Of a DNA stretch of 33,833 bases, positions 3,101-31,309 are shown piece after piece. The notes under the pieces are model-generated. The model had not been told where the DNA came from. It saw only the letters and a program-made list of their open reading frames with translations, and made no database searches. This DNA comes from Pseudoselenomonas ruminantium (GTDB lineage: Bacteria; Bacillota; Negativicutes; Selenomonadales; Selenomonadaceae). A program made the position numbers and the translations under genes. Where the stretch lies: positions 1-33,833 of the forward strand of contig NZ_FOQK01000033.1 in the NCBI RefSeq assembly GCF_900113715.1. The letters run 5' to 3'. The first letter of the stretch is position 1. Each line of letters begins with the position of its first letter.

Positions 3101-3184
3101 TGCCACGCCGCCGATGGCCGTCATGATGATGAAGTACCAGACCAGCGCCCGATGCTTCAGCGATATTTCTGTCAGATTCGTCAT
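140..3184 (-). CDS. RND-family efflux transporter permease (AcrB/HAE type)
   Basis: A 1014-residue inner-membrane proton-driven efflux pump, full length for the AcrB family. An N-terminal membrane helix (about residues 12-30) is followed by a large periplasmic porter domain, a helix bundle (about 335-500), a second porter domain and a second bundle (about 865-1010). The proton-relay aspartates of TM4 are present as D401-D402 in GLLVDDAIIAVE. The position of the AcrB TM10 lysine is an arginine (about R925, in SGMIIRNSVILI), as in some non-HAE1 RND pumps. Its start codon overlaps the stop of the adaptor gene upstream (TGATG), so the two are translationally coupled. No outer-membrane TolC-like partner is encoded here. 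The substrate cannot be told from sequence; drugs or other amphiphiles are likely. Confidence 0.93.
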   Translation of the reverse strand: MTNLTEISLKHRALVWYFIIMTAIGGVAAYFQLGRMEDPQFTIRQMVITAAWPGATAEQMQEQVTDKLEKKFQDVPGLDHINSETRAGQTVIYVALKPEVSKEQIRPIWRDVHNFGEAVKKDLPEGVYGPYYNDRFDDVYGSIYAVTGDGYSYEELRQYAEKTRRDLLHIPSVQKVELIGEQPDVVYVELQRDKIAELGINPQIIANALKTQNNMTATGEVETSTNDVFLRVSGVFDDIDAIREMPINANGKVLRLGDIARVQRQSIDPAKPKMYFNGEPAIGIAVSMEEGGNILELGEQLRQEIGKIQQEVPVGLEIHQVSDQPKVVDGSIHDFVKTLVEAIVIVLAVSFLSLGVRTGMVVAGCIPLVLCGVFCIMYMAGIDLHKVSLGALIIALGLLVDDAIIAVEMMSVKLEMGLNRFDAACYAFRATAKPMLTGTLITCAGFIPVAFSEGLASEFCRALFPVIATALLLSWLVSVMIAPLFGYHLIQVEVKTDEAGKFDPYQSKFYRWFREVLVWFLDHRRLVLGVTAVLFLVSVGMLKFVKQEFFPTSTRPEVLIELKLPEGSSMAATQEVCDRMSDWLQARQDLLANYSYYVGRYAPRFVLTIDPKAERDNAAQFVLVAKDTEAREKLTEQLNKAFADDFADVRAKMQFIQTGPPAAYPVMLRVTGYTSDQAKELARKVADIVAEDPNNYNVNMSWGDKSKVMHLELDQDKLNSLGVSSQAVSQQLYTSITGATAAQFYAGDRTIDIKLRLASEDRQDLSKIKSLPIYLGQAGYVPLEQLAKISYEAEDGYIERRDLMPTVTVQAEIHAGTANDATQKAFDATKELREDLPFGCRIEPAGALADSKDSAGYLMKPIPMMIFIIMTLLMFQLGSVKQMVLTVLTAPLGIIGVSWGMLLTNSAMGFVAELGILALSGMIIRNSVILIDQIQKHLADGETPWDAVVDSAILRFRPIMLTAAAAILGMLPLMFSRFWGPMAVAIASGLLVATVLTLLVLPAMYAVAYKVKRE

Positions 3185-4278
3185 CAGTCAGCCGCCTCCG
3201 TCCGCACACTCTGCCCTGCACGCAGCTTATGCACGCCAGCCGTGACCACCAGATCCGTGGGCGCCAGTCCCTGTACCAGGACTTGATTATCCCCAAAGTT
3301 CTCGACAGTAACCGGCTTGAGGCTAACCGTATGATCATCACCGACCACCCAGACCTGCGGCGTATCGCCATCCTGATAGATGGCCGACAACGGCAAAAGC
3401 GCCGTGCCCGCACTGCCAGCATCCTCGGCGGCAGCTTTCGGCGTCAGGGCAACATTGGCCGTCATGCCAAGCTGCATACCAGCTGGCGGCTCCGGCACTG
3501 ACACGCGCACGCGATAGGTGCGGGACGCGCTATCCGCCATCGGCGCGATTTCACGCACTACACCTTCAGCCCGGTCATGGATCGCCCAGAACTTGACAAC
3601 CGCCCGATCGCCTACGGCAATCCCGGCCACGCGGTTCTCCGGCACCTGGATTTCAATCTCCAGCTCGTTTGTCTGCACGAGCGTCAGCACCGTCTGGCCA
3701 GCACCTACCACCTGGCCCTCCTCGGCCGTGATGGATGATACGACGCCATTTGCCCCGGCGGTGAGATTCGTATAGCCCATGGCATTATGTCCCTGCGCCG
3801 CCTGGGCCAGTGCATTCTGATAGGCTGCAAACGCCGCATCGTAATTAGCCTGATACTGGTCAAGCGTCGCCGCAGCCACAGCATTTTCCTGATACAGCTG
3901 GCTGTAGCGGGAAAGATTGCGTTGCGCAAGGTCAAGCTGGGCCCGCGCCTGAGCCACCTGGGCATCCCCTTGATTGGACTTCTGCACGACATCACGGCTG
4001 TCGATCGTCATGAGCACATCGCCGGCGCGTACAGACGAGCCCACCTGCACATTGCGGCTGATGATCTGCCCGCCGACCTGAAACGACATATTCGTCTCAT
4101 ACCTGCCGCGGACAGTCCCCGAATATGAGCTGTTATCCGCCAGCGAACTGCTATCCGCCTGCTGGGTCTTGACCAGTGGTGCCCGCTCCTGCTCCTGCTC
4201 CTTGCTGCCGCAGCCAGCAAATACCAGATTCATCATTGCCAGCAGGCAAACCGCCGCACATAGCTTATAGCCTTTCAT
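3184..4278 (-). CDS. RND efflux periplasmic adaptor lipoprotein (HlyD/MFP family)
   Basis: A 364-residue membrane-fusion protein that would link the RND permease to an outer-membrane channel. The N-terminus is a lipoprotein signal peptide with lipobox VFAGC (acylated Cys23). The order is as in AcrA/MexA: first half of the lipoyl barrel (VQVGSSVRAGDVLMTID), an alpha-helical hairpin rich in Ala/Gln (about 100-165), the second lipoyl half (GVVSSITAEEGQVVGAGQ), then beta-barrel and membrane-proximal domains. It overlaps the regulator gene upstream by 14 bp and the pump gene downstream by one base. A typical adaptor; only the substrate is open. Confidence 0.93.
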   Translation of the reverse strand: MKGYKLCAAVCLLAMMNLVFAGCGSKEQEQERAPLVKTQQADSSSLADNSSYSGTVRGRYETNMSFQVGGQIISRNVQVGSSVRAGDVLMTIDSRDVVQKSNQGDAQVAQARAQLDLAQRNLSRYSQLYQENAVAAATLDQYQANYDAAFAAYQNALAQAAQGHNAMGYTNLTAGANGVVSSITAEEGQVVGAGQTVLTLVQTNELEIEIQVPENRVAGIAVGDRAVVKFWAIHDRAEGVVREIAPMADSASRTYRVRVSVPEPPAGMQLGMTANVALTPKAAAEDAGSAGTALLPLSAIYQDGDTPQVWVVGDDHTVSLKPVTVENFGDNQVLVQGLAPTDLVVTAGVHKLRAGQSVRTEAAD

Positions 4279-4747
4279 GAACCTCGCCTCCTGTCGGCAC
4301 TTTCTTTGCTAAATCCACGATGTTCGCCGCGCAGGCACGCGTGACAAGCTCGTTAAATCCATTGAACAGGGTATGGATCTCGTTGGGATTCATATCGCGG
4401 ACCAGATAGTCCACCCAGCCCTGGATGATATTGCGCAAAAATTGATGCTGCTCCTTGCCATACGAAGTCAGGAAGATATGTTTGACACGGCGATCGGCCG
4501 GATCGACTTCCCTATAGATGAAACCTTTGCCCTCCAGCAGGTTTACCGTCCGCGTAACTACCGCTTTGTCAAGATACAGCATACTCGCGAGCTCATCCTG
4601 CTTTGCGCCCTCATGATCAAAGATGCGGATCAGCATGATGTATTCCGAAAAGGTAAGGTCAAGTTTCTGGCAGGCCTCCACCACAAACAGCTGCGATCGC
4701 CGATGCAGGATGGAAAACCAGCGTCCAACATTTACATAATCATCCAT
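4265..4747 (-). CDS. MarR-family transcriptional regulator of the RND operon
   Basis: A 160-residue winged-helix regulator. The start chosen is the ATG at 4747, because GGAGG lies 8 nt upstream; a longer frame to 4810 has no ribosome site and would add residues encoded by the promoter. The MarR core is visible: LTFSEYIMLIRIFDHEGAKQ, then the recognition helix region ASMLYLDKAVVTRTVNLLEGKGF and the wing EVDPADRRVKHIFLT. It is the first gene of the operon and overlaps the adaptor gene by 14 bp, so it most likely controls its own operon, as MarR proteins usually do by repression relieved by a small ligand. Two palindromes in the intergenic region just upstream are candidate operators. Confidence 0.9.
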   Translation of the reverse strand: MDDYVNVGRWFSILHRRSQLFVVEACQKLDLTFSEYIMLIRIFDHEGAKQDELASMLYLDKAVVTRTVNLLEGKGFIYREVDPADRRVKHIFLTSYGKEQHQFLRNIIQGWVDYLVRDMNPNEIHTLFNGFNELVTRACAANIVDLAKKVPTGGEVHERL

Positions 4748-4797
4748 AAACGTATTCCTCCCACCACTCCGTAGTATATAATAAGGTTTGTATGTTG

Positions 4798-4842
4798 TTG
4801 ACTTTATCAAATAATTTTACTAAAAATGATAATAAAAGTCAA
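4798..4842. promoter_or_regulatory. marR promoter inside a dyad (possible MarR operator)
   Basis: On the minus strand TTGACT (4842-4837), a 17-bp spacer and TAAAAT (4819-4814) form a good sigma-A promoter for marR. The same -35 is one arm of an inverted repeat: TTGACTTT at 4798-4805 mirrors AAAGTCAA at 4835-4842, and ATCA/TGAT extends the symmetry. The left arm is therefore also a -35-like TTGACT on the plus strand. A MarR dimer bound here would cover the promoter. Confidence 0.55.
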
Positions 4843-4866
4843 TCATATAAGGCTTATTAATCCGAC

Positions 4867-4899
4867 CTTAATATATATATACTTGCTAGATATATTAAG
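4867..4899. promoter_or_regulatory. AT-rich inverted repeat, candidate operator
   Basis: CTTAATATAT (4867-4876) and ATATATTAAG (4890-4899) form a perfect 10-bp inverted repeat with a 13-nt spacer. It overlaps a possible plus-strand promoter for the glycosyltransferase operon, TTGCTA (4883-4888), 17 bp, TAAACT (4906-4911). Whether a regulator binds here is unknown. Confidence 0.4.
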
Positions 4900-4954
4900 A
4901 TTTGCTAAACTAAACTTTCGAGAGAGTACGCATTTAGGAGGTACATGAAATATA

Positions 4955-6439
4955 ATGAATCAGAAAGAATTCCGGCTGTCTGTGCTGGCCCTTATCATCC
5001 TGCTGCTCGCCGGCAATGCCTGGCTGGCCATCACCGATCCGGTAGAATCAAACTACGCGCTGACCGCGCGTGAGATGCTCGAATCGGGCGACTTCATCTC
5101 GCCGCGCATCTACGGCAACTACTGGTACGATAAACCGATCTTCTTCTACTGGGAGCTCATCCTCGCCTTCAAGCTGTTCGGCGTCAACGAATTCGCCGCC
5201 CGCTTCTTCCCGGCGGTCTTCGCGTTCCTCAATGTCGGCCTCGTCTACTGGTTTGCCAAGAAGCTTTATAGCGCCAAGACTGCTATCTGCTCGGCGCTCG
5301 TCTTTGCCACGACGACAGGCTTTTTCTACCTGTCGCGTGCCGTCATCACCGACATGGCCTTTGTCTTCTTCTTCAACGCCGTGCTGGTCACCTTCTACCT
5401 GGCTTACAGCAGCGGCAACCGCCGTCTCTATCTGGGCTCCTTCTTCTTTGCAGGACTGGCCACGCTGACCAAGGGACCAATCGGCATTCTGATGCCGGGG
5501 CTCATCCTGCTGGTATTCCTCTGCATCCGCAAGCGTCCTGGCGAGCTATTACGCATGATGTGGCTGCCGGGGCTTGCCATCTTCTGCGCCGTCGGCGGCT
5601 ACTGGTACTATCAGATGTACCAGCTGCACGGCCAGGACTTCATCCTCAACTTCTTCGGCGTGCACAATTTCCTGCGCGCCACCGTCGCCGAGCATAGCCG
5701 CGACGACGTCTGGTACTACTACACGATGATCTTCCTGCTGGGCTTCTGCCCCTGGTCCTTCATCATGCTCTACCAGATCAAGAAACGCTGGCAGGAACTG
5801 CGCGAAAAAGTCCGTGCCCGCGCCGTAAGCGAACCCACGATTTTCCTGCTGCTCTGGGCCTTCCTGGTCAATTTCCTGTTCCAGATGATGGCGACGAAAT
5901 ACCTGACCTACACGCAGCCGTCGTTCCTGCCGCTGGCCATCCTCGCCGGCGTCCTGCTCAGCGAGCGCCTCACGATGGTCAAGAAGGTCGCCGCTGGTGC
6001 CTGGGTGCTCTATATGATTCTGACCTTCGCCGGTGCCATGCCGCTCTGCGACCAGCGCTCCGGCCGCCAGACGGCCGAGGCCCTCAAGGAGCTGAATCCG
6101 GAGCACCGCCTCGTCGTGAACTGCGGCGACTATCAGACTTCGACGGTCTTCTATTATCATGAGAACATCGCCGACCTCGGCTGGCGCGCCGACATCGAGA
6201 AAGCCAAACCTGGCGACATCAGCTGGAACGCCAAGAATGTCATGCCGTTCATGGCCTATGAAGACCTGCCGGTAGGCGAGCCCATCATCGTCACCGTACA
6301 GAATGACCGCGCTGACAACCTCAAGAAAGCCCTGCCCCGTGCCGAGCTGCGCACGCTGCGCACCCTCGACGCCTACAGTATCGTCGAAATGATCATCCCC
6401 GACGAAGCAGCCAAACAGAAAGGAAGCAATGACAAATGA
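4955..6439 (+). CDS. ArnT-like GT39 membrane glycosyltransferase
   Basis: A 494-residue polytopic membrane protein of the ArnT/PMT (GT-C) fold, which moves a sugar from a polyprenyl-phosphate carrier to lipid A or another cell-surface acceptor. The first helix (about 8-28) is followed by the family acidic loop motif, DPVESNYALTAREM, and by YWYDKPIFFYWE. Several further helices (about 80-430) precede a soluble C-terminal tail. AGGAGG lies 13 nt before the ATG, a somewhat long spacing. The stop overlaps the next gene by 4 bp (ATGA). The adjacent GT2 gene could make the polyprenyl-phosphate sugar donor, as ArnC does for ArnT. A family member with another sugar and acceptor is equally possible; aminoarabinose itself cannot be claimed, because no other arn genes are here. 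Confidence 0.88.
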   Translation: MNQKEFRLSVLALIILLLAGNAWLAITDPVESNYALTAREMLESGDFISPRIYGNYWYDKPIFFYWELILAFKLFGVNEFAARFFPAVFAFLNVGLVYWFAKKLYSAKTAICSALVFATTTGFFYLSRAVITDMAFVFFFNAVLVTFYLAYSSGNRRLYLGSFFFAGLATLTKGPIGILMPGLILLVFLCIRKRPGELLRMMWLPGLAIFCAVGGYWYYQMYQLHGQDFILNFFGVHNFLRATVAEHSRDDVWYYYTMIFLLGFCPWSFIMLYQIKKRWQELREKVRARAVSEPTIFLLLWAFLVNFLFQMMATKYLTYTQPSFLPLAILAGVLLSERLTMVKKVAAGAWVLYMILTFAGAMPLCDQRSGRQTAEALKELNPEHRLVVNCGDYQTSTVFYYHENIADLGWRADIEKAKPGDISWNAKNVMPFMAYEDLPVGEPIIVTVQNDRADNLKKALPRAELRTLRTLDAYSIVEMIIPDEAAKQKGSNDK

Positions 6440-7413
6440 TGAGAGGCAGCAGTTTGTCTATCGTAGTGCCCGTATATAATGAATCGGACAACCTGCGTCA
6501 TTTTTATGCAGCAATCTGTGAGGAAATGGCCAAGCTCAACTACGATTGGGAGCTCATCTTCGTAAACGATGGCTCCACCGATAACAGCAAGGAAATCCTG
6601 CTCGAACTCGAGCAGCAGGACAGCCATGTCCAGCCGATTTTCCTGGCCAAGAACTCCGGCCATCAGCTGGCGCTTACCTGCGGTCTGGATCACGCTGACG
6701 GCGATGCTGTCATCACGATGGATGGCGACATGCAGCACCCGCCAGCGCTGATCCCGACGCTTCTGGATTACTGGAATCAGGGCTATGACATCGTCCAGAC
6801 CATCCGCGAAGCCACCGAGGATGCCTCCTGGCTCAAGAAATTGACCTCCGCCGGATACTACAAATTGCTCAATATCATTTCCGAGGTTCCGGTCCAGCCT
6901 GGCGGCTCTGACTTCCGGCTCATGGATCATCAGGCCGTTGTCGCTTTCCGTCACTACCGCGAACACGCCCGTTTCATCCGCGGCATCATCGGTTCTATGG
7001 GCTTCAATCAAATACAGGTACATTTCACGGCTCCGCCGCGCTTTGCCGGCGTGTCGAAATTCTCGCCCAAGAAGATGCTGCGGCTGGCCGTCGACGGCGT
7101 CTTCACCTGCTCGACCTTCCCATTGCGCATTGGCCTCTACGCCGGCGTGGCCTCCATGTTTGCCAGCTTCCTGCTCATCCTGCACGTCCTCTATGAGACA
7201 TTCGTGCAGGAAGCTACCGTAGCCGGCTGGCCGAGCATCATGGCCTGCATCCTGTTCTTCGGCGGTATGCAGCTGTTGGTTCTCGGGCTCATCGGCGAGT
7301 ACCTCGGCCGCACCTACGAAGAGACAAAGCGCCGGCCGCTCTACTTGATCGAACGCGGCAAACCGCGCGATCAGAACAACAGATTCGCCATCAGCAAGGA
7401 GGAACGTCTATGA
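6436..7413 (+). CDS. GT2 polyprenyl-phosphate glycosyltransferase (ArnC/DPM1-like)
   Basis: A 325-residue GT-A enzyme with two C-terminal membrane helices (about 233-255 and 268-290), the architecture of ArnC, GtrB and DPMS-like enzymes that load a sugar onto undecaprenyl phosphate on the cytoplasmic face. Visible motifs are SIVVPVYNESDN at the N-terminus, FVNDGSTDNS, the metal-binding DGDMQHPP, and the interface-type sequence FSPKKMLRLAVDG before the helices. It starts inside the stop of the ArnT-like gene and ends inside the start of mqnA (both ATGA overlaps), so the three are translated as one unit. The donor sugar is not determined by the sequence. Confidence 0.9.
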   Translation: MMRGSSLSIVVPVYNESDNLRHFYAAICEEMAKLNYDWELIFVNDGSTDNSKEILLELEQQDSHVQPIFLAKNSGHQLALTCGLDHADGDAVITMDGDMQHPPALIPTLLDYWNQGYDIVQTIREATEDASWLKKLTSAGYYKLLNIISEVPVQPGGSDFRLMDHQAVVAFRHYREHARFIRGIIGSMGFNQIQVHFTAPPRFAGVSKFSPKKMLRLAVDGVFTCSTFPLRIGLYAGVASMFASFLLILHVLYETFVQEATVAGWPSIMACILFFGGMQLLVLGLIGEYLGRTYEETKRRPLYLIERGKPRDQNNRFAISKEERL

Positions 7414-8252
7414 CTTGCCCACGAGTCGGACATATCAATTTCCTGAATGTCCTGCCGCTGACCTGGAGCTACGCACACGGTGCTGACCAGGGCCTTGCCA
7501 TCACCCGCGGCGTACCGGCAGTCCTCAACAACGATATCGTCAATCACCGGCTCGACGTCAGCAATGTCTCCTCCATCATCTATGCCCGTGACAGCGAGGA
7601 GCTCGTCGTCCTGCCGGATGTCTGCGTGAGCAGCGATGGCGACGTGCAGAGCATCCTGCTCGTCTCGCGCAAGCCGATCGGCGACCTGCGCGATGACAAG
7701 ATCATCCTGACGGCCAAATCGGCCACCTCCCACTGCCTGCTCAAAATCATCCTGCGCGGTGCCTATGGTGCCATCCCGAACTACTACGTGCGCCATATAA
7801 CGCCCGAGGATCCGATTCCCGAGGATGCAGCCGCATCGCTGCTGATCGGCGATGACGCGCTCTGGCTCTACCACCATCAGCAGCCAGACCTCTACTACTA
7901 CGATCTCGGCCACGAATGGAAGCAGATGACAGGCAAGAAGATGGTCTATGCACTCTGGGTCGCCAACAAGGATTTTGCAGCGCAGAATCCCGCGCTGCTC
8001 CAGCTCGTCTACGACCGCATCCACCATGCCTTCCAGAACGGTCTTGCCCACAAGCGCGAGGCCATCGAGTCGATCCTTGCCGGCAAGCCGTTCACCTACG
8101 AGCAGCTCGACGACTACCTCGGCCCGACCATCCGCTGGGAGCTCACCGAGGAATACCTCGACGGCCTGCGCACCTTCTACGACCTCGCGCACCAGATGAA
8201 TCTCATCGAGCACATCCCCACCATCAAGCTGGCAGATGTGCAGCGCAGCTGA
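7410..8252 (+). CDS. mqnA: Menaquinone biosynthesis protein MqnA (chorismate dehydratase)
   Basis: A 280-residue periplasmic-binding-protein-like cytoplasmic enzyme; MqnA converts chorismate to 3-[(1-carboxyvinyl)oxy]benzoate, the first step of the futalosine menaquinone pathway. The N-terminus RVGHINFLNVLPLTW and VSNVSSIIYA (the family S-x-x-S-x-x-YA segment), then ILTAKSATSHCLLKIIL and LLIGDDAL, are typical. Full length. The ATG follows AGGAGG and overlaps the GT2 stop by 4 bp. Its place at the end of a glycosyltransferase operon is unusual; no other mqn gene is in the window. It is followed by a strong terminator. Confidence 0.92.
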   Translation: MTCPRVGHINFLNVLPLTWSYAHGADQGLAITRGVPAVLNNDIVNHRLDVSNVSSIIYARDSEELVVLPDVCVSSDGDVQSILLVSRKPIGDLRDDKIILTAKSATSHCLLKIILRGAYGAIPNYYVRHITPEDPIPEDAAASLLIGDDALWLYHHQQPDLYYYDLGHEWKQMTGKKMVYALWVANKDFAAQNPALLQLVYDRIHHAFQNGLAHKREAIESILAGKPFTYEQLDDYLGPTIRWELTEEYLDGLRTFYDLAHQMNLIEHIPTIKLADVQRS

Positions 8253-8265
8253 AAATCATATAGGC

Positions 8266-8316
8266 AAAAAAAGGAGCCAGTGCAATCTAGCGATAGATTG
8301 CACTGGCTCCCTTTCT
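8266..8316. terminator. Bidirectional terminator between mqnA and the convergent gene
   Basis: A perfect 17-bp stem (8273-8289 with 8294-8310) is closed by a GCGA tetraloop of the GNRA class. It is preceded by seven A and followed by CTTTCTATT, so it works best for the minus-strand gene and acceptably for mqnA. Confidence 0.85.
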
Positions 8317-8329
8317 ATTCCGCTGTTCT

Positions 8330-9040
8330 TCATTTGATGCGGATAACGCCAGGCTGGATGATCTTCCATTGCCCGTTGCGCTTCTGGAATTTCGCCGGCA
8401 GGCGGACCTGTATCTCCCGGCACTCTCCTTGCTCGTAATTCGAGGCGAAGGTCTCCTTCATGCCACCCTCGTTATGCAGCTGCTGATCATAAGGATGCAG
8501 GGGATTCGGCACGACGATATAGGCCCCGACAGCCTCAGGAACCGGCCACGCCCAATAGGTGCTCTGGGCGATATCCTCGACGGCCGCGAACTGCGGCATG
8601 GCCTGCCCATTCTCCTGCGCCGCATGGTCGGTGCAGACGAAGACCTCCAGCTCATTGGTCTTGACGAAGGCCTCGCAGGCCTGCTGCGCCTTGGGCACAT
8701 CCATGCTGGCCGCCAGATTGTTGTAGTCTGCGAGGAACGCATGCCAGACTTCCTTCTGCTTCTCAGCCAGGATAGCCTCCTGCTCCAGCGCCTGTTCCGC
8801 TTCTTTGGCTTCGGCCTCGGCCTGCGCTGCCGTCGCCTCAGCGGACAAGCGCGCCTTGAGCACCTTGACATCCTGCTTGAGGGCTGCCACCTCTTTTTCC
8901 AGTTCGGCGATCTTGTTGAACTGCTTGCGGCCGCTGATGATGACCGACCAGTTATACGCCACGCCGACCAGCGATACCACGCTCAGCACGCCGATCAATA
9001 CAATCAATACACCAGCCACAAGTGGTGGAAATAACTCCAT
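8330..9040 (-). CDS. Unknown membrane-anchored coiled-coil protein
   Basis: A 236-residue protein of no family I recognise. An N-terminal hydrophobic helix (about 6-33) with little before it suggests a membrane anchor. A charged, Ala/Glu/Lys-rich heptad region (about 40-100) should form a coiled coil. The remaining 130 residues look globular, with Trp-rich STYWAWPVPEAVGAYIVVPNP and a C-terminal beta-like segment ending WKIIQPGVIRIK. The start has AGGAAG upstream. It follows the 9070-9786 gene by 29 bp; that gene has the same plan (anchor, charged coiled coil, globular tail), so the two may be partners. Most likely acts in or at the cell envelope. Confidence 0.8.
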   Translation of the reverse strand: MELFPPLVAGVLIVLIGVLSVVSLVGVAYNWSVIISGRKQFNKIAELEKEVAALKQDVKVLKARLSAEATAAQAEAEAKEAEQALEQEAILAEKQKEVWHAFLADYNNLAASMDVPKAQQACEAFVKTNELEVFVCTDHAAQENGQAMPQFAAVEDIAQSTYWAWPVPEAVGAYIVVPNPLHPYDQQLHNEGGMKETFASNYEQGECREIQVRLPAKFQKRNGQWKIIQPGVIRIK

Positions 9041-9069
9041 AACTGCTGCTTCCTTTCTGCTGCACGCAT

Positions 9070-9786
9070 TTACTCTTTGCCGTTCAGGCGATCAGCCAGC
9101 TCCAGGATGTTCCGGATGCGTTTCGCCTCGGTCGCCGTCAGCATGCGGTCGTCGTTCGAGCCGCCCTCGACGCCAGGCATCGTGATCTTTGCCGCCAGCA
9201 CATCGCTGATCTCACGCATGGCCTTGCCGGTCTCCGCATCGACGGGCTGGTCGCACCATTCCATGATGCCGCTTTCCGTCTGGGTCGTCGCGACAGGCAC
9301 CTGAGCCCGGATATGATAGATCGCATCAGCCGTCGGCTGGAGGTCTACCCCCTGAAAGCCCATCGGCCGGTGGCCGCGATGACGCAGGATGACATGCAGG
9401 ACAGCTACGCCGTCTGCGCCCCGCACCAGATAGGGCTGGAAGAAGATACCATCCTCCGTCGGGTCTGCATAGCGATAATATGTCGCACCATCCTCCCCCT
9501 GGGAGATCTCCATATCGGCCGTCAGCCCGCGGATGACCTGATCCGGCTCCTCGGCACGGCCCAGCCGCTTATCGAGAAGTTCCTGCTTCTTGCGCGCCTT
9601 CTCCCGCAGCGCGGCCTCCTTGGCTTCCTTTTCCTGGCGGGCTGCCTCCTTTGCTGCCTCCTGCTTATCTTTCTCGGCCTGCACAATCTCCCGCGTCTGA
9701 TGATAGTGGATAGCCATCAGATATCCAGCTCCACCGGCTACAGCCAGGACCAGCACCGCCACGATCACATATTTGATTTTCCCCAT
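9070..9786 (-). CDS. Unknown membrane-anchored coiled-coil protein, first gene of pair
   Basis: A 238-residue protein. I start it at the ATG at 9786 (MGKIKYVIVAV), which has AAAGGAG 7 nt upstream, instead of 27 bp earlier at 9813. A single hydrophobic helix (about 4-25) is followed by a very charged Lys/Glu/Ala stretch (about 33-75, predicted coiled coil), then a globular region with ATYYRYADPTEDGIFFQPYLV and a helical C-terminus. No known domain is recognised. The positive residues before the helix suggest the N-terminus is inside and the tail in the periplasm. Probably co-transcribed with the 8330-9040 gene. Confidence 0.8.
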   Translation of the reverse strand: MGKIKYVIVAVLVLAVAGGAGYLMAIHYHQTREIVQAEKDKQEAAKEAARQEKEAKEAALREKARKKQELLDKRLGRAEEPDQVIRGLTADMEISQGEDGATYYRYADPTEDGIFFQPYLVRGADGVAVLHVILRHRGHRPMGFQGVDLQPTADAIYHIRAQVPVATTQTESGIMEWCDQPVDAETGKAMREISDVLAAKITMPGVEGGSNDDRMLTATEAKRIRNILELADRLNGKE

Positions 9787-9841
9787 CGTCAGGCTCCTTT
9801 CCCAGAATCCCATTTACTCTCTTCCATTTTTTATATACGAC

Positions 9842-9876
9842 AAAAAGGAGGGCTGTTCCTGCTCTCCTCCTAAAAA
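9842..9876 (-). terminator. Terminator after the Sua5/TsaC gene
   Basis: On the minus strand AGGAGG (9871-9866) pairs with CCTCCT (9851-9846 region), extended by a GC pair, and is followed by TTTTTG. It closes the prfA-prmC-Sua5 transcription block. The stem has a small bulge. Confidence 0.6.
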
Positions 9877-9881
9877 TCGCA

Positions 9882-10943
9882 TCATGCCATAAGCGTACGG
9901 AAACCGCTGGCCTTGTGCAGCCGATTCATTATGGCAAGTCCCAGCCCGTCTTCCGTCGTACCTTCGCCAAGCAGGACATCGGCTGGTTTATCATCAAAGC
10001 TGCGTAAAGCTTCATAGATATTGGCCGCAATGGCCGGCAAATCCTGCTGATGACCATAGTCGGCCATGAGATCTGCCGGCACCAGATCATAAAGCTCCTG
10101 CAGGACCTCGTGGCTCGCGATGACCCCCACCGTATGGCCCTCGGCCTGCAGGCGCCCGATTTCCCGCTGGAAGGCGCGGGCCATGCGCGTCGGCATGCCC
10201 TCGATAAGAGTCAGCGGAGCCTTGGGCGCATAATGCGTATACTTCATGCCCGGCGCCTTGGGCACTGCGTCTGCCCCGACAAGCGCAGGGTCGAGAGCGA
10301 CAGCCTCCTCGCCGATAAGCTCGGCGAGCATCTCGCGCGTCACCGCGCCAGGGCGCAGGATGACGGCTTTGCTGCCCGTGCAGTCAACAATTGTCGATTC
10401 GACACCGAAGCGGCAGGCGCCGCCATCGAGGATCAGCGGGATCCGCCCATCCATATCGCGGGCCACGGCCGCAGCAGTCGTCGGGCTGGGCCGGCCTGAG
10501 ATGTTGGCCGAGGGCGCAGCGACCGGCACGCCAGCCTCCTTTATCATCGCTCGGGCAACATCGTTTTCGGGCATGCGGACGCCTACCGTGTCAAGGCCGC
10601 CGGTGATGCGGTCCGGTACGAGGGCGCGGCGCTTCAAGATCAGCGTGATAGGCCCGGGGCAGAAGGCCGCGAGCAGCTTCTCCGCCAGTGGCGTCACCTG
10701 CACGGCGACCTGATCGACCATCGAACGGTTCGCCACATGCAGGATCAGCGGATTATCCGACGGACGCCCCTTGGCATCATAAATCCGCCCACAGGCATCA
10801 CCGTCAAGGCCATTGGCGCCGAGCCCGTAGACCGTCTCCGTCGGGAAGGCCACAAGACCGCCCTGCCGCAGGATTTCGCCTGCCTGCTGCAAAGTGGCCT
10901 TCTGCGCCTTCACATCTTCTATCTTCACAATTCTCGTATCCAA
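9882..10943 (-). CDS. L-threonylcarbamoyladenylate synthase (Sua5/YwlC type)
   Basis: A 353-residue two-domain Sua5 enzyme. It makes threonylcarbamoyl-AMP from threonine, bicarbonate and ATP, the donor for t6A37 of ANN-decoding tRNAs. The YrdC domain (about 15-205) shows GGLVAFPTETVYGLGANG, KGRPSDNPLILHV and PSANISGRPSPT; the C-terminal Sua5 domain (about 215-345) begins after the linker APGMKYTHYAPKAPL. The start is TTG (10943) with GAGGTG 7 nt upstream; a GTG five codons later is a weaker alternative. It lies 57 bp after prmC in the same direction; Sua5 next to prmC and prfA is a common Firmicute arrangement. Confidence 0.93.
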   Translation of the reverse strand: MDTRIVKIEDVKAQKATLQQAGEILRQGGLVAFPTETVYGLGANGLDGDACGRIYDAKGRPSDNPLILHVANRSMVDQVAVQVTPLAEKLLAAFCPGPITLILKRRALVPDRITGGLDTVGVRMPENDVARAMIKEAGVPVAAPSANISGRPSPTTAAAVARDMDGRIPLILDGGACRFGVESTIVDCTGSKAVILRPGAVTREMLAELIGEEAVALDPALVGADAVPKAPGMKYTHYAPKAPLTLIEGMPTRMARAFQREIGRLQAEGHTVGVIASHEVLQELYDLVPADLMADYGHQQDLPAIAANIYEALRSFDDKPADVLLGEGTTEDGLGLAIMNRLHKASGFRTLMA

Positions 10944-15172: not shown

Positions 15173-16108
15173 TCATGTTTCAAAGGTATTGTCACGATAA
15201 AATTCAGTAATGGAAGCAGCCGGCAAGCATAGGCATCTGGCCGGCTTGCTGCCGGCAAGATCCTGGACGGCCCGGCATACGAGCACCGCATCCACCGGCG
15301 CATCACCCGCCAGCAGCTGGAATTTCCCCGCTGGCAATCCCTGGGCATAGGCCGTGAGGATACGTCCTTCGCGCTGAGTCTGCGACAGTGGTGCCGTATC
15401 ATCCTGCCCGATGACGAAATGGCGCACTACCCCCTTGCGCGTATAGTCGATCAGGCAGCGGTTCATCGACAGATTCTTGTCGCGGCGCGCCTGCCAGTCC
15501 TGCCAGACATCCGGCGGAACGGCATTCATGTGCCGGCTGAGCTCGGCCTGCTCGGCCCGGGTCAGCCCCTGGGTCTCCTGCTTGTCCACCAGCGCCGTAG
15601 CCGCAACGATATCATCCCCGTACTCCAGATAGTAGTCGGGACCGCCGCGGCCTGCCGCAGCATCCCCCGACGTCCGCATGAGGGACCCGAACACATAGAA
15701 CCGGATGTCCGGATACTTCTGGTGCAGCACGGCAAACTGCGCTACGCGCGCCGCCAGCAAGGGCTCTGGCAGCTCATGGCGGCGCGACGGTACCAGGCCG
15801 CCGTAGAGCAGGGCATCGGCAGACACCATCGCGGCATCGGCGGTGCCGATGTTTGCCCGCACCCAGGCCCAGAGCTTGTCCGGCTGCCCCGGACAAGCAG
15901 CGCCATCGCTCAGGAGCTCAGCCGGTGGCAGCAGGACTTCATAGCCACGGGAGCGGAGGCGCTCCACCGCCGCCTGATCTGCCAGCGCGCAGTTATCGTA
16001 TGGGACAAATAGCAGTTTTCCCTTGGCTGCTGCCAAGGATGCATCCACGGCCAGCAGACTGAACAGCCCGGCCAGGACAGCAGCCAAAATCATCCTTATC
16101 GTTTTCAT
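15173..16108 (-). CDS. DUF4127 family secreted protein, apparently C-terminally shortened
   Basis: A 311-residue protein with a signal peptide (cleavage probably after ASLA, residue 26) and the N-terminal part of a DUF4127 domain: LLFVPYDNCALAD, the conserved VSADALLYGGLVPSR, YVFGSLMRTS, and KNLSMNRCLIDYTRKGVVRHFVIGQDDTAP. From memory, DUF4127 proteins are about 500 residues or more; here the reading stops soon after the region equivalent to the family's GADE motif, which reads GDAPVDAVLVCRA. The last 20 residues look unrelated. It may be a decayed gene or a short variant. GAGGTGG precedes the ATG. The family function is unknown. Confidence 0.7.
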   Translation of the reverse strand: MKTIRMILAAVLAGLFSLLAVDASLAAAKGKLLFVPYDNCALADQAAVERLRSRGYEVLLPPAELLSDGAACPGQPDKLWAWVRANIGTADAAMVSADALLYGGLVPSRRHELPEPLLAARVAQFAVLHQKYPDIRFYVFGSLMRTSGDAAAGRGGPDYYLEYGDDIVAATALVDKQETQGLTRAEQAELSRHMNAVPPDVWQDWQARRDKNLSMNRCLIDYTRKGVVRHFVIGQDDTAPLSQTQREGRILTAYAQGLPAGKFQLLAGDAPVDAVLVCRAVQDLAGSKPARCLCLPAASITEFYRDNTFET

Positions 16109-16207
16109 AGCTCCACCTCATTGGCCGCATAGACTATCCTCTCGGTGTTTGCTCTTTAATTCGACATCGCCCTGCCAAAAACCTGCCATCGGCCGCCACG
16201 TTATTTG

Positions 16208-16216
16208 TGTTATAAT
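16208..16216 (+). promoter_or_regulatory. Extended -10 promoter of tex
   Basis: TGTTATAAT (TG at 16208, perfect TATAAT 16211-16216) lies 35 bp before the tex start. No good -35 is present, as expected for an extended -10 promoter. The leader would be under 30 nt. Confidence 0.6.
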
Positions 16217-16250
16217 GAAGACATTACGACAGAAAGTTGGTACTTACGCT

Positions 16251-18446
16251 ATGCTTACAAACGATATCAGCGCGGTCATCGCGAAAGAATTGAACGTCCG
16301 CCCGAAACAGGTCACGGCGGCCATCGAGCTGCTCGATGACGGCAACACGGTGCCCTTCATCGCCCGCTACCGCAAGGAAGCCACGGGCTCACTCGAAGAT
16401 GAGCAGCTGCGCGTGCTCGAAGAGCGCCTTGCCTATCTGCGCAACCTCGTCAAGCGCCAGGAGGAGATCCTCGGCAAGATCGAGGAGCAAGGCAAGCTTA
16501 CGGACGAACTGCGCACGGCCATTGAAAAGACTACGAAACTGCAAGACCTCGAGGATCTCTATCTGCCCTACAAGCAGAAAAAACGCACGCGCGCCCAGAT
16601 TGCCCGTGAGGCTGGCCTGGAGCCGCTCGCCAATGCCATGATGCTGCAAGCGCAGTCCAAGGGAACCGCACTTGCCGAGGCCGCAAAGTTCATCGATGCG
16701 GCCAAGGGCATCGAAACGGCAGAGGACGCACTGGCTGGCGCGATGGATATCGTTGCCGAAACCACGATGGAAGATGCGGCCCTGCGCAAGAAGATGCGCA
16801 CGCGCCTCTGGAACACGGCTGTCCTTACGACCAGCCTTGCCGATGATGCGGCAGAAGAGGACAAGCAGGTACTCGAGATGTACGCTGCGTACCGCGAACC
16901 TGTACATACCCTGCCCTCCCACCGCATCCTCGCCATCAACCGCGGCGAGAAGAAGGGCGCACTCAAGGTCAAACTCGAAACCGATCATGAAGAAAACTGC
17001 CGCCGCATCTATAACAGCATCCACCGCCAGCCATCCATCTGGGAGGAAAGCCTGCAAGCTGCCATCGCTGACGGCTATAAGCGCCTGCTGCTGCCCGCGC
17101 TCGAACGCGAGATCCGCAGCCAGCTCACAGAAGCTGCCGAAGCCCAGGCCATCAAGGTATTCGGTGCCAACCTGCGCCAGCTCCTGCTGCAGGCCCCGCT
17201 CGCCGGTCACACGGTCATGGGCCTCGATCCCGGCTACCGCAATGGCTGCAAGATGGCTATTGTCGATGCGACAGGACAGGTACTCGACTATGGTGTCCTG
17301 CAGATTACCCAGAGCGACCGTGCCAAGGCTGCCGCAGCCCAGACTGTGCTGGCCTCCATCCGCAAGCATCACGTCACACTGATTTCCATCGGCAATGGCA
17401 CAGCCTCCTATGAAACCGAGCAGTTCACCGCGGAACTCATCCGCGAAAACGCCCTCGACGATGTCCACTACATCATCGCCAACGAAGCCGGTGCCTCCGT
17501 ATACTCGGCTTCGGCGCTGGCCAAGGAGGAACTGCCCGAATACGATGTCGTCATCCGCGGCGCTGTATCGATCGCCCGCCGCGTACAGGACCCCCTCGCC
17601 GAACTTGTCAAGATCGACCCCAAAGCCATCGGTGTCGGCCAGTACCAGCATGACGTCAATCAAAAGGAACTTACGCATACCCTCGATGCAACCATCGAAA
17701 GTGCCGTCAATCATGTCGGCGTCGATCTCAACACGGCCTCAGCTGCCCTTTTGAAGCACATCGCAGGCATCAATGCGACGATTGCCAAGAACATCGTCGC
17801 CTACCGCAACGAGAACGGCAGCTTCCAAAACCGCCGTGCATTGCTCAAGGTGCCACGGCTCGGCCCTGCCGCTTTCACACAATGCGCGGGTTTCCTGCGC
17901 ATTGCCAGTGGCAAATTGCCGCTGGATAATACCCCTGTCCATCCCGAATCCTATAAGCTCGCTGAAGCGATTCTAGAAAAACTCGGCTTTGACCTTAGAG
18001 ACCTCAACGACAAAGATCAGCTCGCCCTGCTTGCCGCCAAGAGCAAACTCGTCGACTGTGCCAAGCTTGCCAAGGAACTCGACGCCGGCGAGCCGACAGT
18101 CAAGGACATCCTTGCAGCCCTTATCAAGCCCGGCCGCGATCCCCGCGAGGATTTGCCAGCCCCGCTGACACGGCAGGCCATCGTCAAGCTATCCGACATC
18201 CAGCCAGGCACCATCATGCGCGGTACCGTGCGCAATATCACGGATTTTGGCGCCTTTGTCGACATCGGCCTGCACCAGGACGGTCTTATCCATATCTCCG
18301 AGCTGTCCAAGAAACGCGTCAAGCATCCGCTCGATGTGCTCTCGATCGGCGATGTCCTAAACGTCATGGTCATCAGCATCGATGAAAAGCGCAACCGCAT
18401 CGGCTTATCGCTAAAACAAGTCCCAAAGGAGGCCCAGATCGGATGA
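16251..18446 (+). CDS. tex: Tex-family S1 RNA-binding transcription accessory protein
   Basis: A 731-residue Tex protein; the family acts with RNA polymerase and binds nucleic acid. I start at the ATG at 16251 (MLTNDISAVIAKELNVRPKQ), since the open frame further upstream includes the promoter. Order: N-terminal helix-turn-helix with DDGNTVPFIARYRKEATG (about 30-47), the YqgF-like RNase H fold (about 320-450, VMGLDPGYRNGCKMAIVD), helix-hairpin-helix repeats (about 490-570, NTASAALLKHIAGINATIAKNIV), and the C-terminal S1 domain (about 645-715, GTVRNITDFGAFVDIGLHQDGLIHISEL). The ribosome site is weak. The stop overlaps the next gene by 4 bp. Confidence 0.95.
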   Translation: MLTNDISAVIAKELNVRPKQVTAAIELLDDGNTVPFIARYRKEATGSLEDEQLRVLEERLAYLRNLVKRQEEILGKIEEQGKLTDELRTAIEKTTKLQDLEDLYLPYKQKKRTRAQIAREAGLEPLANAMMLQAQSKGTALAEAAKFIDAAKGIETAEDALAGAMDIVAETTMEDAALRKKMRTRLWNTAVLTTSLADDAAEEDKQVLEMYAAYREPVHTLPSHRILAINRGEKKGALKVKLETDHEENCRRIYNSIHRQPSIWEESLQAAIADGYKRLLLPALEREIRSQLTEAAEAQAIKVFGANLRQLLLQAPLAGHTVMGLDPGYRNGCKMAIVDATGQVLDYGVLQITQSDRAKAAAAQTVLASIRKHHVTLISIGNGTASYETEQFTAELIRENALDDVHYIIANEAGASVYSASALAKEELPEYDVVIRGAVSIARRVQDPLAELVKIDPKAIGVGQYQHDVNQKELTHTLDATIESAVNHVGVDLNTASAALLKHIAGINATIAKNIVAYRNENGSFQNRRALLKVPRLGPAAFTQCAGFLRIASGKLPLDNTPVHPESYKLAEAILEKLGFDLRDLNDKDQLALLAAKSKLVDCAKLAKELDAGEPTVKDILAALIKPGRDPREDLPAPLTRQAIVKLSDIQPGTIMRGTVRNITDFGAFVDIGLHQDGLIHISELSKKRVKHPLDVLSIGDVLNVMVISIDEKRNRIGLSLKQVPKEAQIG

Positions 18447-20362
18447 GCCTTCTCGAACAAACTATCGCCGTCATCCAGCCGGCCAGCCAGGAGACGGCCA
18501 CTGACGCAGCCGCCCGCCTTCAGCAGGTACTCGAGGGCGATGCTGCCGCCCTTGGCCGCCTGCGCGATTTGCTGCTGCGCTATCTGACCATAACCGGAAA
18601 GCGCCATCCCCAGCCGCCAGAAAAGTGCACGATCATCGCCTGCGCCGACCATGGCGTTGCTGCCGAAGGAGTCAGTGCCTATCCAGCCGAAACGACTGTG
18701 CAGATGACCCGCAACTATCTCATCAGCCGCGGCGGTGCTGCCAACGCTTTTTCTGATTATTGCGGTTCCGAACTGCTCATCGTCGATATGGGCATAGCCG
18801 CTGACACCAGTGACATTCCCGACCTCATCGATGCCCGCATTGCCAGTGGCACCGCCAATATGGCCCAAGGCCCCGCAATGACACGCGAGCAGGCCAGGCA
18901 GTCCATCGAGGCAGGCATCAGCATTGCCAACCAAGTCATTGACGAAGGCTTCGACTGCCTGCTGCCCGGCGAGATGGGCATCGCCAATACCACAGCCAGT
19001 GCAGCCATCACAGCTGTCTGCTGCGGCCTTTGTGCCGCCGATGTCACCGGACGCGGCACAAACATCTCCGACGAACGCCTGCAAAAGAAGACAAGCGTCA
19101 TCGAGCAGGCACTGTCCATCAACCAGCCAAGGCCGCATGACGGTCTCGATATCCTTGCCAAAGTCGGCGGCTTTGAACTGGGCGCTATTGCAGGACTGAT
19201 TCTCGGCGCAGCCGCCCGCCAATGCGCCGTCATCCTCGACGGCGCCAACACCGCAGCCGCCGCTCTCATTGCCCAGACACTGGCCCCCGACTGCACAGAC
19301 TATCTGCTTGCTTCCCATCTGGGCGCAGAAAAATCCCATGTCCACAGTCTCAAGAAGCTCGGGCTCGAACCGCTCATGGACCTCGACCTCAAGCTCGGCG
19401 AAGCCTGCGGCTCAAGCCTTGCGGCCGCCATGCTCGACGCCGTGCTCACAGCCTGGGATGTCCTCGACAAGCTGCCCCATGACCCGATCGAGACGCCATT
19501 CCATCACGAATACATGCGTCATACGGTCCCGAAGATTACGGATAAGACCTTCGACTTCTACCTGCGCACGATGCAGGATCTCGACCATCAAGCGATGGAG
19601 CTTTGCCAGCAGCGTATCGATAACCTCGCCAAGCCCATCTACAGCCTCGGCTACCTTGAGCAGATTGCCGTCGAGCTCGCCGGCATCATCGGCGACGAGC
19701 TGCCCGAATGCGGCATGGACAGAGCCCTGCTGGTCTTCACCGGCCGGCACACGAGCCCGCTGCAGTCGCAGCTCACCGCGGCCTTTGCCACCCATGCCGG
19801 TGCCGAAGTCACACTGGCCCACCTGCGCGACGGACTGCCGCCTACCGCGGCCTTTGACTTCGGCCGTGAGCATGCCGAGCTCCTGTCGCTGTCCTATCCG
19901 CTGCTCGGCCTGTCGCTGACGGAAATCGACGAAGATGCACCGTTCGGCACGGCCGCCAGCGAGCTGCGCGCCGCCTTGCTCAAAGAAGATGGCAGCCTGC
20001 GCTACGCTGCTGACGAGTTCCTGCAGCAAACACCGGAAACATATCAGCCTGCAGTCAGCGCCATAATCGGTGCGATAATCGCCGCCGCGCATAACAGCAG
20101 CTTCATCCTGCTAGACGACGAAGCCACGGAAATCATCGCGCGCTACACCGAGCTCTTATGCCCCGCTGTGCGCCCCTATATCCTGCATGTCCAGCCAGCA
20201 ATGCTTTTGACAGATATCACATTGCCCGGTGGCATCATCGCCAGCCTTGGCCTTGGCATCACCGAAGCAGCCATGCATATGCTGAACATCATGCGCACCT
20301 TCGCGGAAACAAAAGTAGCCGTCGCCAGCGACGGCCCCGGTGCCGGCCGGCAGCAACAATGA
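18443..20362 (+). CDS. cobT: Double CobT-like phosphoribosyltransferase (possible fused ArsA-ArsB)
   Basis: A 639-residue protein made of two CobT-like halves; CobT is normally about 350 residues and transfers ribose phosphate from nicotinate mononucleotide to the lower ligand base of cobamides. The first half (1-345) has ACADHGVAAEGVSAYP (D69-H70), GEMGIANTT, ILDGANTAAAAL and the catalytic-type glutamate E320 in KLGEACGSS, but lacks the N-terminal TKPxGSLGRLE signature. The second half (385-625) has that signature (LAKPIYSLGYLEQIAVELAGI) but no DHG motif, and the glutamate position reads PGG (about 596-598). The halves therefore look complementary. Sporomusa, also a Negativicute, has a two-protein ArsAB enzyme for phenolic ligands; this may be its fused form. 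It overlaps tex by 4 bp. Confidence 0.88.
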   Translation: MSLLEQTIAVIQPASQETATDAAARLQQVLEGDAAALGRLRDLLLRYLTITGKRHPQPPEKCTIIACADHGVAAEGVSAYPAETTVQMTRNYLISRGGAANAFSDYCGSELLIVDMGIAADTSDIPDLIDARIASGTANMAQGPAMTREQARQSIEAGISIANQVIDEGFDCLLPGEMGIANTTASAAITAVCCGLCAADVTGRGTNISDERLQKKTSVIEQALSINQPRPHDGLDILAKVGGFELGAIAGLILGAAARQCAVILDGANTAAAALIAQTLAPDCTDYLLASHLGAEKSHVHSLKKLGLEPLMDLDLKLGEACGSSLAAAMLDAVLTAWDVLDKLPHDPIETPFHHEYMRHTVPKITDKTFDFYLRTMQDLDHQAMELCQQRIDNLAKPIYSLGYLEQIAVELAGIIGDELPECGMDRALLVFTGRHTSPLQSQLTAAFATHAGAEVTLAHLRDGLPPTAAFDFGREHAELLSLSYPLLGLSLTEIDEDAPFGTAASELRAALLKEDGSLRYAADEFLQQTPETYQPAVSAIIGAIIAAAHNSSFILLDDEATEIIARYTELLCPAVRPYILHVQPAMLLTDITLPGGIIASLGLGITEAAMHMLNIMRTFAETKVAVASDGPGAGRQQQ

Positions 20363-31151: not shown

Positions 31152-31309
31152 AAAAAACGCCCTTCAGGCCAGACCTGAAAGGCGCACGAATACACGGATA
31201 TCCTTTCCTGTCTTAGTCCTATGGATCTAAGCAGTACCCCAATGATACGTAACTATGGATTGCTTGGGAAAAAGTATAACTCACCAGAGTGATGTCATCT
31301 TCTGCCACA
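31152..31309 (-). ncRNA. Structured RNA candidate (6S-like small RNA or panC leader/attenuator)
   Basis: A transcript of about 158 nt would start near 31309 from the promoter at 31316-31344 and end in a terminator (11-bp stem, 31184-31174 with 31168-31158, then six T). Inside are a hairpin CTTAG-a-TCC-ATA-GGA-CTAAG near 31218-31238, a long-range pairing of CTTTTTCC with GGAAAGG, and a weak closing stem of GCATG with CGTGC, a rod shape that would suit 6S RNA. GAAAGG could also pair with CCTTTC of the terminator arm, as in an attenuator. The next gene is panC, 66 nt on. No riboswitch consensus was recognised. Confidence 0.45.

Follow-up and report, generated by a model that had tools for sequence, protein, structure and literature searches.

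A probable single-chain ArsA–ArsB fusion of the CobT family in Pseudoselenomonas ruminantium and its relatives

The window analysed here, a stretch of 33,833 nucleotides (nt) at positions 1 to 33,833 of contig NZ_FOQK01000033.1 of Pseudoselenomonas ruminantium (assembly GCF_900113715.1; class Negativicutes, family Selenomonadaceae), encodes a CobT-family protein of 639 amino acids (aa), which our searches and trees support as a probable in-frame single-chain fusion of ArsA and ArsB. The two halves have lost complementary motifs, and half 2 probably completes the active site of half 1, the likely substrate being a phenolic base, while a second CobT gene (cobT2) in the ethanolamine operon of the same genome would provide for a base-on cobamide. 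Handles beginning with G, C, L and f denote our genomes, contigs, loci and families, respectively, and papers cited as "in part" are represented by the passages of them that were consulted.

Results

The two halves resemble ArsA and ArsB

The protein is encoded by an intact open reading frame (ORF) with an ATG start, and Pfam DBI_PRT, the CobT family, matches it in two stretches (Table 1). In sequence searches against solved structures (PDB), half 1 matched ArsA at 348 bits, the best CobT at 232 and ArsB at 160, and half 2 scored 85 bits with ArsB, the next match being a CobT at 31; the C-terminal tail VAVASDGPGAGRQ is common to half 2 and the solved ArsB.

In a tree of 186 rows (FastTree, local supports only), all 83 ArsA-type rows, namely, 48 from split pairs and 35 halves of fused chains, form one clade with support 99 that contains half 1, and 60 of the 62 ArsB-type rows (46 of 48 split, 14 of 14 fused halves) form another, with support 100, that contains half 2. 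The two ArsB-like rows outside the latter clade are proteins of family f3, and 12 cobT2 rows make up a third clade (support 100). The tree took 35 of the 70 fused chains as half 1 but just 14 as half 2; halves that are strongly reduced are hard to align, and their omission from the half-2 rows favours a clean ArsB clade. The ArsB of genome G131 is identical to the solved ArsB of Sporomusa ovata in 350 out of 350 residues, and therefore the characterised pair sits inside the ArsA and ArsB clades. The original prediction, made from the letters of the window, had proposed a fused ArsAB pair, to be checked by aligning the halves and building a tree; these analyses agree with it, neither half branching inside ordinary CobT. 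In a second tree, restricted to ArsA (89 rows, IQ-TREE quick search), 26 half-1s from Selenomonadaceae cluster at 99 and, with three other fused families, at 95; the latter grouping unites half 1 with 28 other fused half-1s, and at 90 it is joined by the split ArsAs of f25 and f28, the S. ovata ArsA being placed in a different subclade. The gene set of f25 is that reported for Veillonella.

The combination of the Lys–Pro (KP) of the N-terminal signature, DHG and the glutamate within one subunit, usual for a CobT, occurs in neither half: half 1 is without KP, and half 2 without DHG and the glutamate. Half 1 keeps E177, K216 and E320 besides DHG at aa 69–71, and half 2 carries its KP signature as DNLAKPIYSLGYLE at aa 393–406 and reads LPGGII at the glutamate site. 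This is as had been predicted for the retained DHG and E320 of half 1, the retained signature of half 2, its lost DHG, and the PGG at its glutamate site; the claim that half 1 lacks the signature holds for KP, but a relic, ALGRL, remains at about aa 36–40, so the motif is not wholly gone.

The same division recurs among relatives. In one alignment, fused half-1s have DxG in 34 out of 35 rows, the glutamate in 35 and KP in none, and fused half-2s have DxG in none out of 14, the glutamate in four and KP in all 14. The corresponding counts are 48, 48 and 20 out of 48 for DxG, glutamate and KP in split ArsA, and 24, 33 and 47 out of 48 in split ArsB; the motif division between partners is less complete in split pairs than in fused chains. 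Among 25 outside CobTs, a choice from the 80 loci listed (at least 80 in all), KP is present in 17, DxG in 24 and the glutamate in 25; 13 of the listed loci come from members of the class, and the remainder are mostly ordinary CobTs. The motif pattern does not look like chance, since similar-sized full-length fusions recur across the genus and the family, and the ratio of nonsynonymous to synonymous substitution rates (dN/dS) is below 0.5 wherever it is defined.

A one-chain model of the full protein, which had been suggested as a check, is confident (AlphaFold; predicted local distance difference test, pLDDT, 90.1; predicted template modelling score, pTM, 0.91), as is that of a reduced protein from Pectinatus (pLDDT 91.6, pTM 0.93), where the half-2 remnant is nearly all helical. 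A fold search with the full protein returned the ArsA chains of ArsAB structures first (Z 52.1, root-mean-square deviation 1.5 over 330 residues, 46% identity).

Fused chains are widespread and form a natural deletion series

Half 1 has a match in 148 out of 151 genomes of the family Selenomonadaceae (f1), and an uncultured Selenomonas relative has a protein of 76% identity over 637 residues. Genera with fused arsAB are Selenomonas, Pectinatus, Schwartzia, Anaerovibrio and Quinella. Overall, fused chains occur under nine family codes (f1, f2, f5, f7, f10, f14, f16, f17, and f24), in two of which, f14 and f24, split pairs are found too; at least six changes by fusion or fission are required on the ArsA tree, three or four of which follow from its starred branches by themselves. 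We considered a frameshift or an artefact of assembly and rejected it, as the matches in these 148 genomes are mostly open frames longer than 580 aa (sequences read in part). As a separate observation, Streptomyces loci, including L108, L116, L124, and L150, have CobT inside open frames longer than 1000 aa, which may reflect either fusion or a high G+C content.

Seventy fused chains were aligned after seven duplicate loci had been dropped (L031, L059, L080, L083, L085, L221, and L223), and parts were counted as lost at 15 aa or fewer for the half-1 N-terminal segment and at 25 aa or fewer for the half-2 large domain. All 70 chains keep the half-1 large domain (255–268 aa) and the N-terminal (36–58 aa) and C-terminal (30–56 aa) segments of half 2. 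The half-1 N-terminal segment is lost in 13 (L043, L084, L091 from Quinella, L093, L102, L114, L195, L216–L218, L224–L226), the half-2 large domain in nine (L195, L216–L218, and five Pectinatus genomes, L041, L086, L219, L220, L222), and both in four (L195, L216, L217, L218), leaving proteins of 385–394 aa. These double-loss chains come from three species of one genus (G156, G173, G185) and from a species of another (G155), and in them the large domain precedes the N-terminal small-domain segment, an order that resembles a permutation via duplication and loss. The starts of L195, L216 and L217 are chosen internal methionines, and the match in G185 crosses two stops, taken as upstream of the start since the ORF of 393 aa is intact. 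The half-1 search gave a single CobT match in each of the four genomes, the three of one genus being 85–91% complete, so a second CobT could be missed there.

In dimeric CobT, the small domain of the neighbouring subunit closes the active site. The deletions fit one composite site, because the lost parts, the half-1 small domain and the half-2 large domain, would together build the second one. We infer that one active site is shared between the halves, and the reciprocal domain loss seen in the sequences agrees with this, as do the confident models of the full protein and of the reduced Pectinatus protein.

A second cobT accompanies base-on enzymes

The genome of P. ruminantium encodes another CobT (29% identity) on contig C12, where the gene order is ethanolamine permease, EutA, EutB, EutC (assigned by eye from the ORF between EutB and CobT2), CobT2, CobS2 and alpha-ribazole phosphatase; the genome also has a further cobS. 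Among 22 Selenomonas genomes, this one included, EutB and cobT2 are found in the same seven and neither is found in the other 15, two of which are incomplete (G006 and G007; Fisher p = 6e-6). In the nearest relative, G002, whose ArsAB is 97% identical, the flanks of the ethanolamine site are 93% and 89% identical, and G002 lacks the block that begins with the permease and takes in most of cobS2, what is left being residues 216–251 of the 257 of CobS2 and 35–213 of the 218 of the phosphatase.

The association extends to the class, with EutB and PduC standing for ethanolamine ammonia-lyase and diol dehydratase, which both require base-on cobamides. Out of 130 genomes, 36 have both cobT2 and EutB or PduC, 14 cobT2 alone, seven the enzymes alone, and 73 neither (Fisher p = 6e-14); G057 and G112 are counted here as being without cobT2, though both encode another CobT no more than 5 kb from eutB, and a PduC row below the cut-off (G069) is not counted. 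In 34 of the 36 genomes with both, they lie no more than 5.7 kb apart, and the remaining two carry them on separate contigs. Pairs of rows on independent branches mostly agree, with means of 6.5 the same way versus 0.3 the other way over 11 pairs (median p = 0.03, range 0.008–0.45) and of 6.6 versus 0.0 over 10 pairs (median p = 0.016, range 0.008–0.22). Eight of the 101 ArsA rows have no genome covered by both searches and are not counted in the co-occurrence tests.

Some arrangements around cobT2 are recorded for their own sake. In G131 (locus L200, 4945–10444), cobT2 lies near genes for an arsenite methyltransferase and an ACR3 arsenite exporter, and the genome has no match to EutB or PduC. 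Four f25 genomes with PduC (G080, locus L203; G110, G120, G146) have two cobT2-type genes flanking PduC, and in six genomes of the same f25 genus without PduC one cobT2-type gene is listed.

Cobamides are bound base-on by ethanolamine ammonia-lyase, which does not function with p-cresolyl cobamide (PMC7733943, in part), and growth dependent on this enzyme was not supported by p-cresolyl cobamide (PMC12013260, in part). Non-coordinating cobamides are inactive in base-on enzymes, whereas the binding of two phenolyl cobamides to methylmalonyl-CoA mutase was similar to that of cobalamin (PMC6759758, in part). A cell with ArsAB as its main enzyme would therefore need another CobT or an outside supply for base-on enzymes, and we hypothesize that cobT2 answers this need created by phenolyl cobamides.

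Residues and genes that bear on the lower ligand

A solved CobT mutant, S80Y/Q88M/L175M (4kqj), binds p-cresol according to the PDB entry titles, and half 1 has Y80, M88 and M178 at the three mutated positions. All three residues occur in 32 of 35 fused half-1s and 45 of 48 split ArsAs, and in none of 12 cobT2 proteins, all of which have Gln at position 88.

In 60 genomes, P. ruminantium and 59 relatives, no match to BluB (TIGR02476) exceeded the cut-off, which three of 14 control genomes did exceed, and none to BzaB (TIGR04386) did either, the latter search having no positive control (zero of 14) and other benzimidazole genes not having been sought. The TIGR04386 match in the genome of P. ruminantium (634 of 700 bits) was rejected as a BzaB, being a ThiC (670 bits, over the cut-off), and two other TIGR04386 matches tested likewise score higher as ThiC.

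Features of the window

The coordinates are collected in Table 1. A match to the upstream tex-like gene is present in 47 of 231 loci (duplicate loci counted; many loci have little or no flank). No cobalamin riboswitch was detected in the window by Rfam at the gathering threshold, the only matches being 5S rRNA and a pan motif (31204–31301, minus strand, 44.8 bits).

Table 1. Coordinates of the probable arsAB fusion gene, its parts and neighbour in the window, and of the cobT2 loci on other contigs.
Feature	Coordinates	Strand	Evidence
Probable single-chain ArsA–ArsB fusion (CobT family), 639 aa	18443..20362	+	sequence, Pfam, PDB sequence searches, trees
Likely ribosome-binding site, AGGAGG	18427..18432	+	sequence
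Half 1 N-terminal small-domain segment, aa 1–57; KP of signature lost, relic ALGRL	18443..18613	+	alignments
Half 1 large domain, aa 58–316; kept in 70/70 fused chains	18614..19390	+	alignment
D69, H70, G71 of half 1	18647..18655	+	alignment, sequence
Y80, equivalent of CobT position 80 (S80Y in p-cresol-bound CobT mutant 4kqj)	18680..18682	+	alignment, structure comparison
M88, equivalent of CobT position 88 (Q88M in 4kqj)	18704..18706	+	alignment, structure comparison
E177 and M178, equivalents of CobT E174 and position 175 (L175M in 4kqj)	18971..18976	+	alignment, structure comparison
Half 1 C-terminal segment, aa 317–343; presumed catalytic E320 at 19400–19402	19391..19471	+	alignments
Linker joining the halves, aa 344–366	19472..19540	+	alignment
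Half 2 N-terminal small-domain segment, aa 367–420; signature AKPIYSLGYLE, K397 and P398 at 19631–19636; kept in 70/70 fused chains	19541..19702	+	alignments
Half 2 large domain, aa 421–588; without DHG and glutamate; missing from five Pectinatus genomes and from four permuted relatives	19703..20206	+	alignments
Half 2 C-terminal helix and ArsB-type tail VAVASDGPGAGRQ, aa 589–639; kept in 70/70 fused chains	20207..20359	+	alignment, PDB sequence search
tex-like gene upstream, its stop overlapping the fusion gene by 4 nt	16023..18446	+	Pfam, locus comparison
Ethanolamine operon that includes cobT2, cobS2 and an alpha-ribazole phosphatase gene	contig C12:4000-23900 (L079), 2694–10040		
Remnants of cobS2 and phosphatase (first 34 residues of phosphatase missing)	L230 (G002:C37:12000-31000), about 8888–9512		

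Discussion

Taking all this into account, we regard the following explanation, as a whole, as probable. The protein would be a single-chain ArsAB, whose half 1, the ArsA part, would bind nicotinate mononucleotide (NaMN) and the base and carry the catalytic glutamate E320, and whose half 2, the ArsB part, its own catalytic apparatus lost, would mainly lend its small domain (aa 367–420 and the C-terminal helix) to close the half-1 site. NaMN would donate its phosphoribose to phenol, p-cresol or a similar phenolic base, which would set the lower ligand of the cell's main cobamide, and ethanolamine ammonia-lyase would be supplied with a different cobamide, one that coordinates cobalt, by the cobT–cobS of its operon. 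Both the phenolic substrate, with the ensuing production of phenolyl cobamides, and the division of labour between ArsAB and cobT2 are thus likely rather than observed features, the former following from descent from ArsAB.

Several findings weigh against this explanation, and they are considered here together with the alternatives. The protein could be a duplicated ordinary CobT, in which half 1 is a phosphoribosyltransferase for 5,6-dimethylbenzimidazole (DMB) or another benzimidazole and half 2 a degenerate stabilising domain, so that the product would be a benzimidazolyl or purinyl cobamide. Indeed, half 1 exceeds the cut-off of NCBIfam TIGR03160, the DMB phosphoribosyltransferase model (380 versus 319 bits); the residues Y80, M88, and M178 were rejected as proof of phenolic use, as the set is also found in 16 of the 25 outside CobTs, chosen among the matches listed; and ArsAB itself has been reported to activate benzimidazoles too, DMB among them (PMC8123684, in part). 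Scavenged DMB may be used in the cell despite the lack of a BluB over the cut-off. The predicted structure does little to decide, since Yersinia CobT follows closely behind ArsA for the full protein (Z 51.0) and the fold alone hardly separates ArsA from CobT; for the Pectinatus model the gap is wider (ArsA Z 48.8 versus 45.8). Nevertheless, we hold a duplicated CobT to be unlikely: the halves fall into the ArsA and ArsB clades, the searches of P. ruminantium and 59 relatives for BluB and, with no positive control, BzaB gave nothing over the cut-offs, and base-on operons in these genomes often bring their own cobT–cobS, which would be unneeded if the main enzyme made a coordinating cobamide.

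In Selenomonas, the idea of half 2 as a decaying remnant was rejected on identity and dN/dS. Among 20 sequences from this genus, conservation over the seven parts peaks in the half-2 large domain, with a mean identity of 77.7%, compared with 73.5% for the half-1 large domain and 60.8% for the half-1 N-terminus, and dN/dS, compared for six pairs, stays below 0.5 in all gene parts where it is defined, being low in the half-2 large domain and highest in the half-1 N-terminus in four of the six (0.07–0.49). This speaks for some role beyond that of a passive remnant, as does the retention of blocks such as LDDEATEIIARY in the half-2 large domain of many family members, and a fused ArsAB whose half-2 large domain has gained a new function, in binding a regulator or a ligand or as a dimer scaffold, and whose base may be another phenolic or a purine, would account for it. 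We consider such a new role quite unlikely, given that the domain is absent in all five Pectinatus genomes and in the four permuted relatives, where the half-1 search gave no other CobT; because of these absences, it seems dispensable for the core reaction. In the comparison with the nearest relative (L003), the half-1 large domain shows a synonymous divergence (dS) of 0.06 and its half-2 counterpart one of 0.38, a contrast that points to intragenic recombination.

The association of cobT2 with the eut or pdu genes admits a reading of its own, in which B12 genes and those of B12-using enzymes simply tend to cluster or to be transferred together, and no need created by phenolyl cobamides lies behind it. 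B12 genes do cluster with pdu operons in species without ArsAB, such as Salmonella. Moreover, the 14 genomes with cobT2 and without EutB or PduC (six from f4 with no ArsA hit, six from f25, G131, which is S. ovata by ArsB identity, and its near neighbour G142) and five genomes with EutB or PduC and no CobT seen beyond the ArsA/ArsB pair (G038, G045, G085, G124, G128) do not follow the expectation of a dedicated cobT2. At the same time, the Selenomonas cobT2–cobS2 tracks EutB despite the presence of ArsAB and another cobS, seven out of seven with EutB against none of the 15 without it, and the cassette is missing as a block in the nearest relative. General clustering is thus possible, if on the doubtful side.

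The solved NaMN:phenol/p-cresol phosphoribosyltransferase ArsAB from S. ovata (PDB: 4hdk, 4hdm, 4hdn, 4hdr, 4hds) is the closest characterised system: both of its parts are present here, its ArsA is 46% identical to half 1 over 330 residues, and the glutamate stands at the place of CobT E317 in both. It consists of two chains, whereas the window protein is one, and its ArsB partly keeps the motifs (DNG and E), whereas in half 2 DHG and the glutamate are gone, together with the loop preceding the glutamate. The NaMN:DMB phosphoribosyltransferase CobT from Salmonella, Thermus and Yersinia shares the fold, the family, and Pfam DBI_PRT with the window protein, but it mostly has all motifs in one subunit, whereas here they are divided between the halves. 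Veillonella parvula, reported to produce p-cresolyl and benzimidazolyl cobamides, resembles the present case in having ArsAB and a separate CobT, though its arsA and arsB are counted among tandem genes (PMC8123684, in part), while P. ruminantium has them as one fused gene and its second cobT within an ethanolamine operon. In the BluB/CobT2 fusion from Propionibacterium freudenreichii, CobT is also joined to a lower-ligand enzyme, but the partner is BluB and not a second CobT (PMC4657239, in part).

Shelton and colleagues defined arsAB as two adjacent cobT homologs and found it in 27 species (PMC6461909, in part). The ArsA and ArsB parts are encoded here together as one ORF, and since one gene cannot be an adjacent pair, fused arsAB would be missed by this definition. 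Selenomonas and Pectinatus are not listed in the consulted part of the predicted-producer table in PMC8123684, ArsAB is not mentioned in PMC9561151, and PMC10881866 has nothing on phenol or cresol. We found no description of a fused or permuted ArsAB in the open-licence literature, covered mainly by titles and the beginnings of abstracts, the key subscription papers lying outside this scope. ArsAB itself is known, and it is the fused form that appears to be novel; the NCBI model names the fused protein a DMB enzyme.

A broader picture, for and against which we see the chances as evenly balanced, joins two propositions. In the Selenomonadaceae, a doubled enzyme would be passing through circular permutation by duplication: after fusion of ArsA and ArsB, each half would give up what its partner provides, until a protein of 385–394 aa is left that consists of a single ArsA large domain and, behind it, a relocated ArsB small domain, with one site; and the class would split its cobamide making between ArsAB, producing phenolyl cobamides for base-off enzymes, and dedicated cobT–cobS genes in the operons of base-on enzymes. 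The deletion series offers a natural test of active-site sharing between two CobT subunits, and the cobT2 link a testable reason for having two lower-ligand enzymes in one bacterium. Phenolyl cobamides are reported to make up 20–34% of bovine rumen corrinoids, and the only known producers named are S. ovata and V. parvula (PMC8123684, in part); fused arsAB points to a wider set of candidate phenolyl cobamide makers than the 27 published species.

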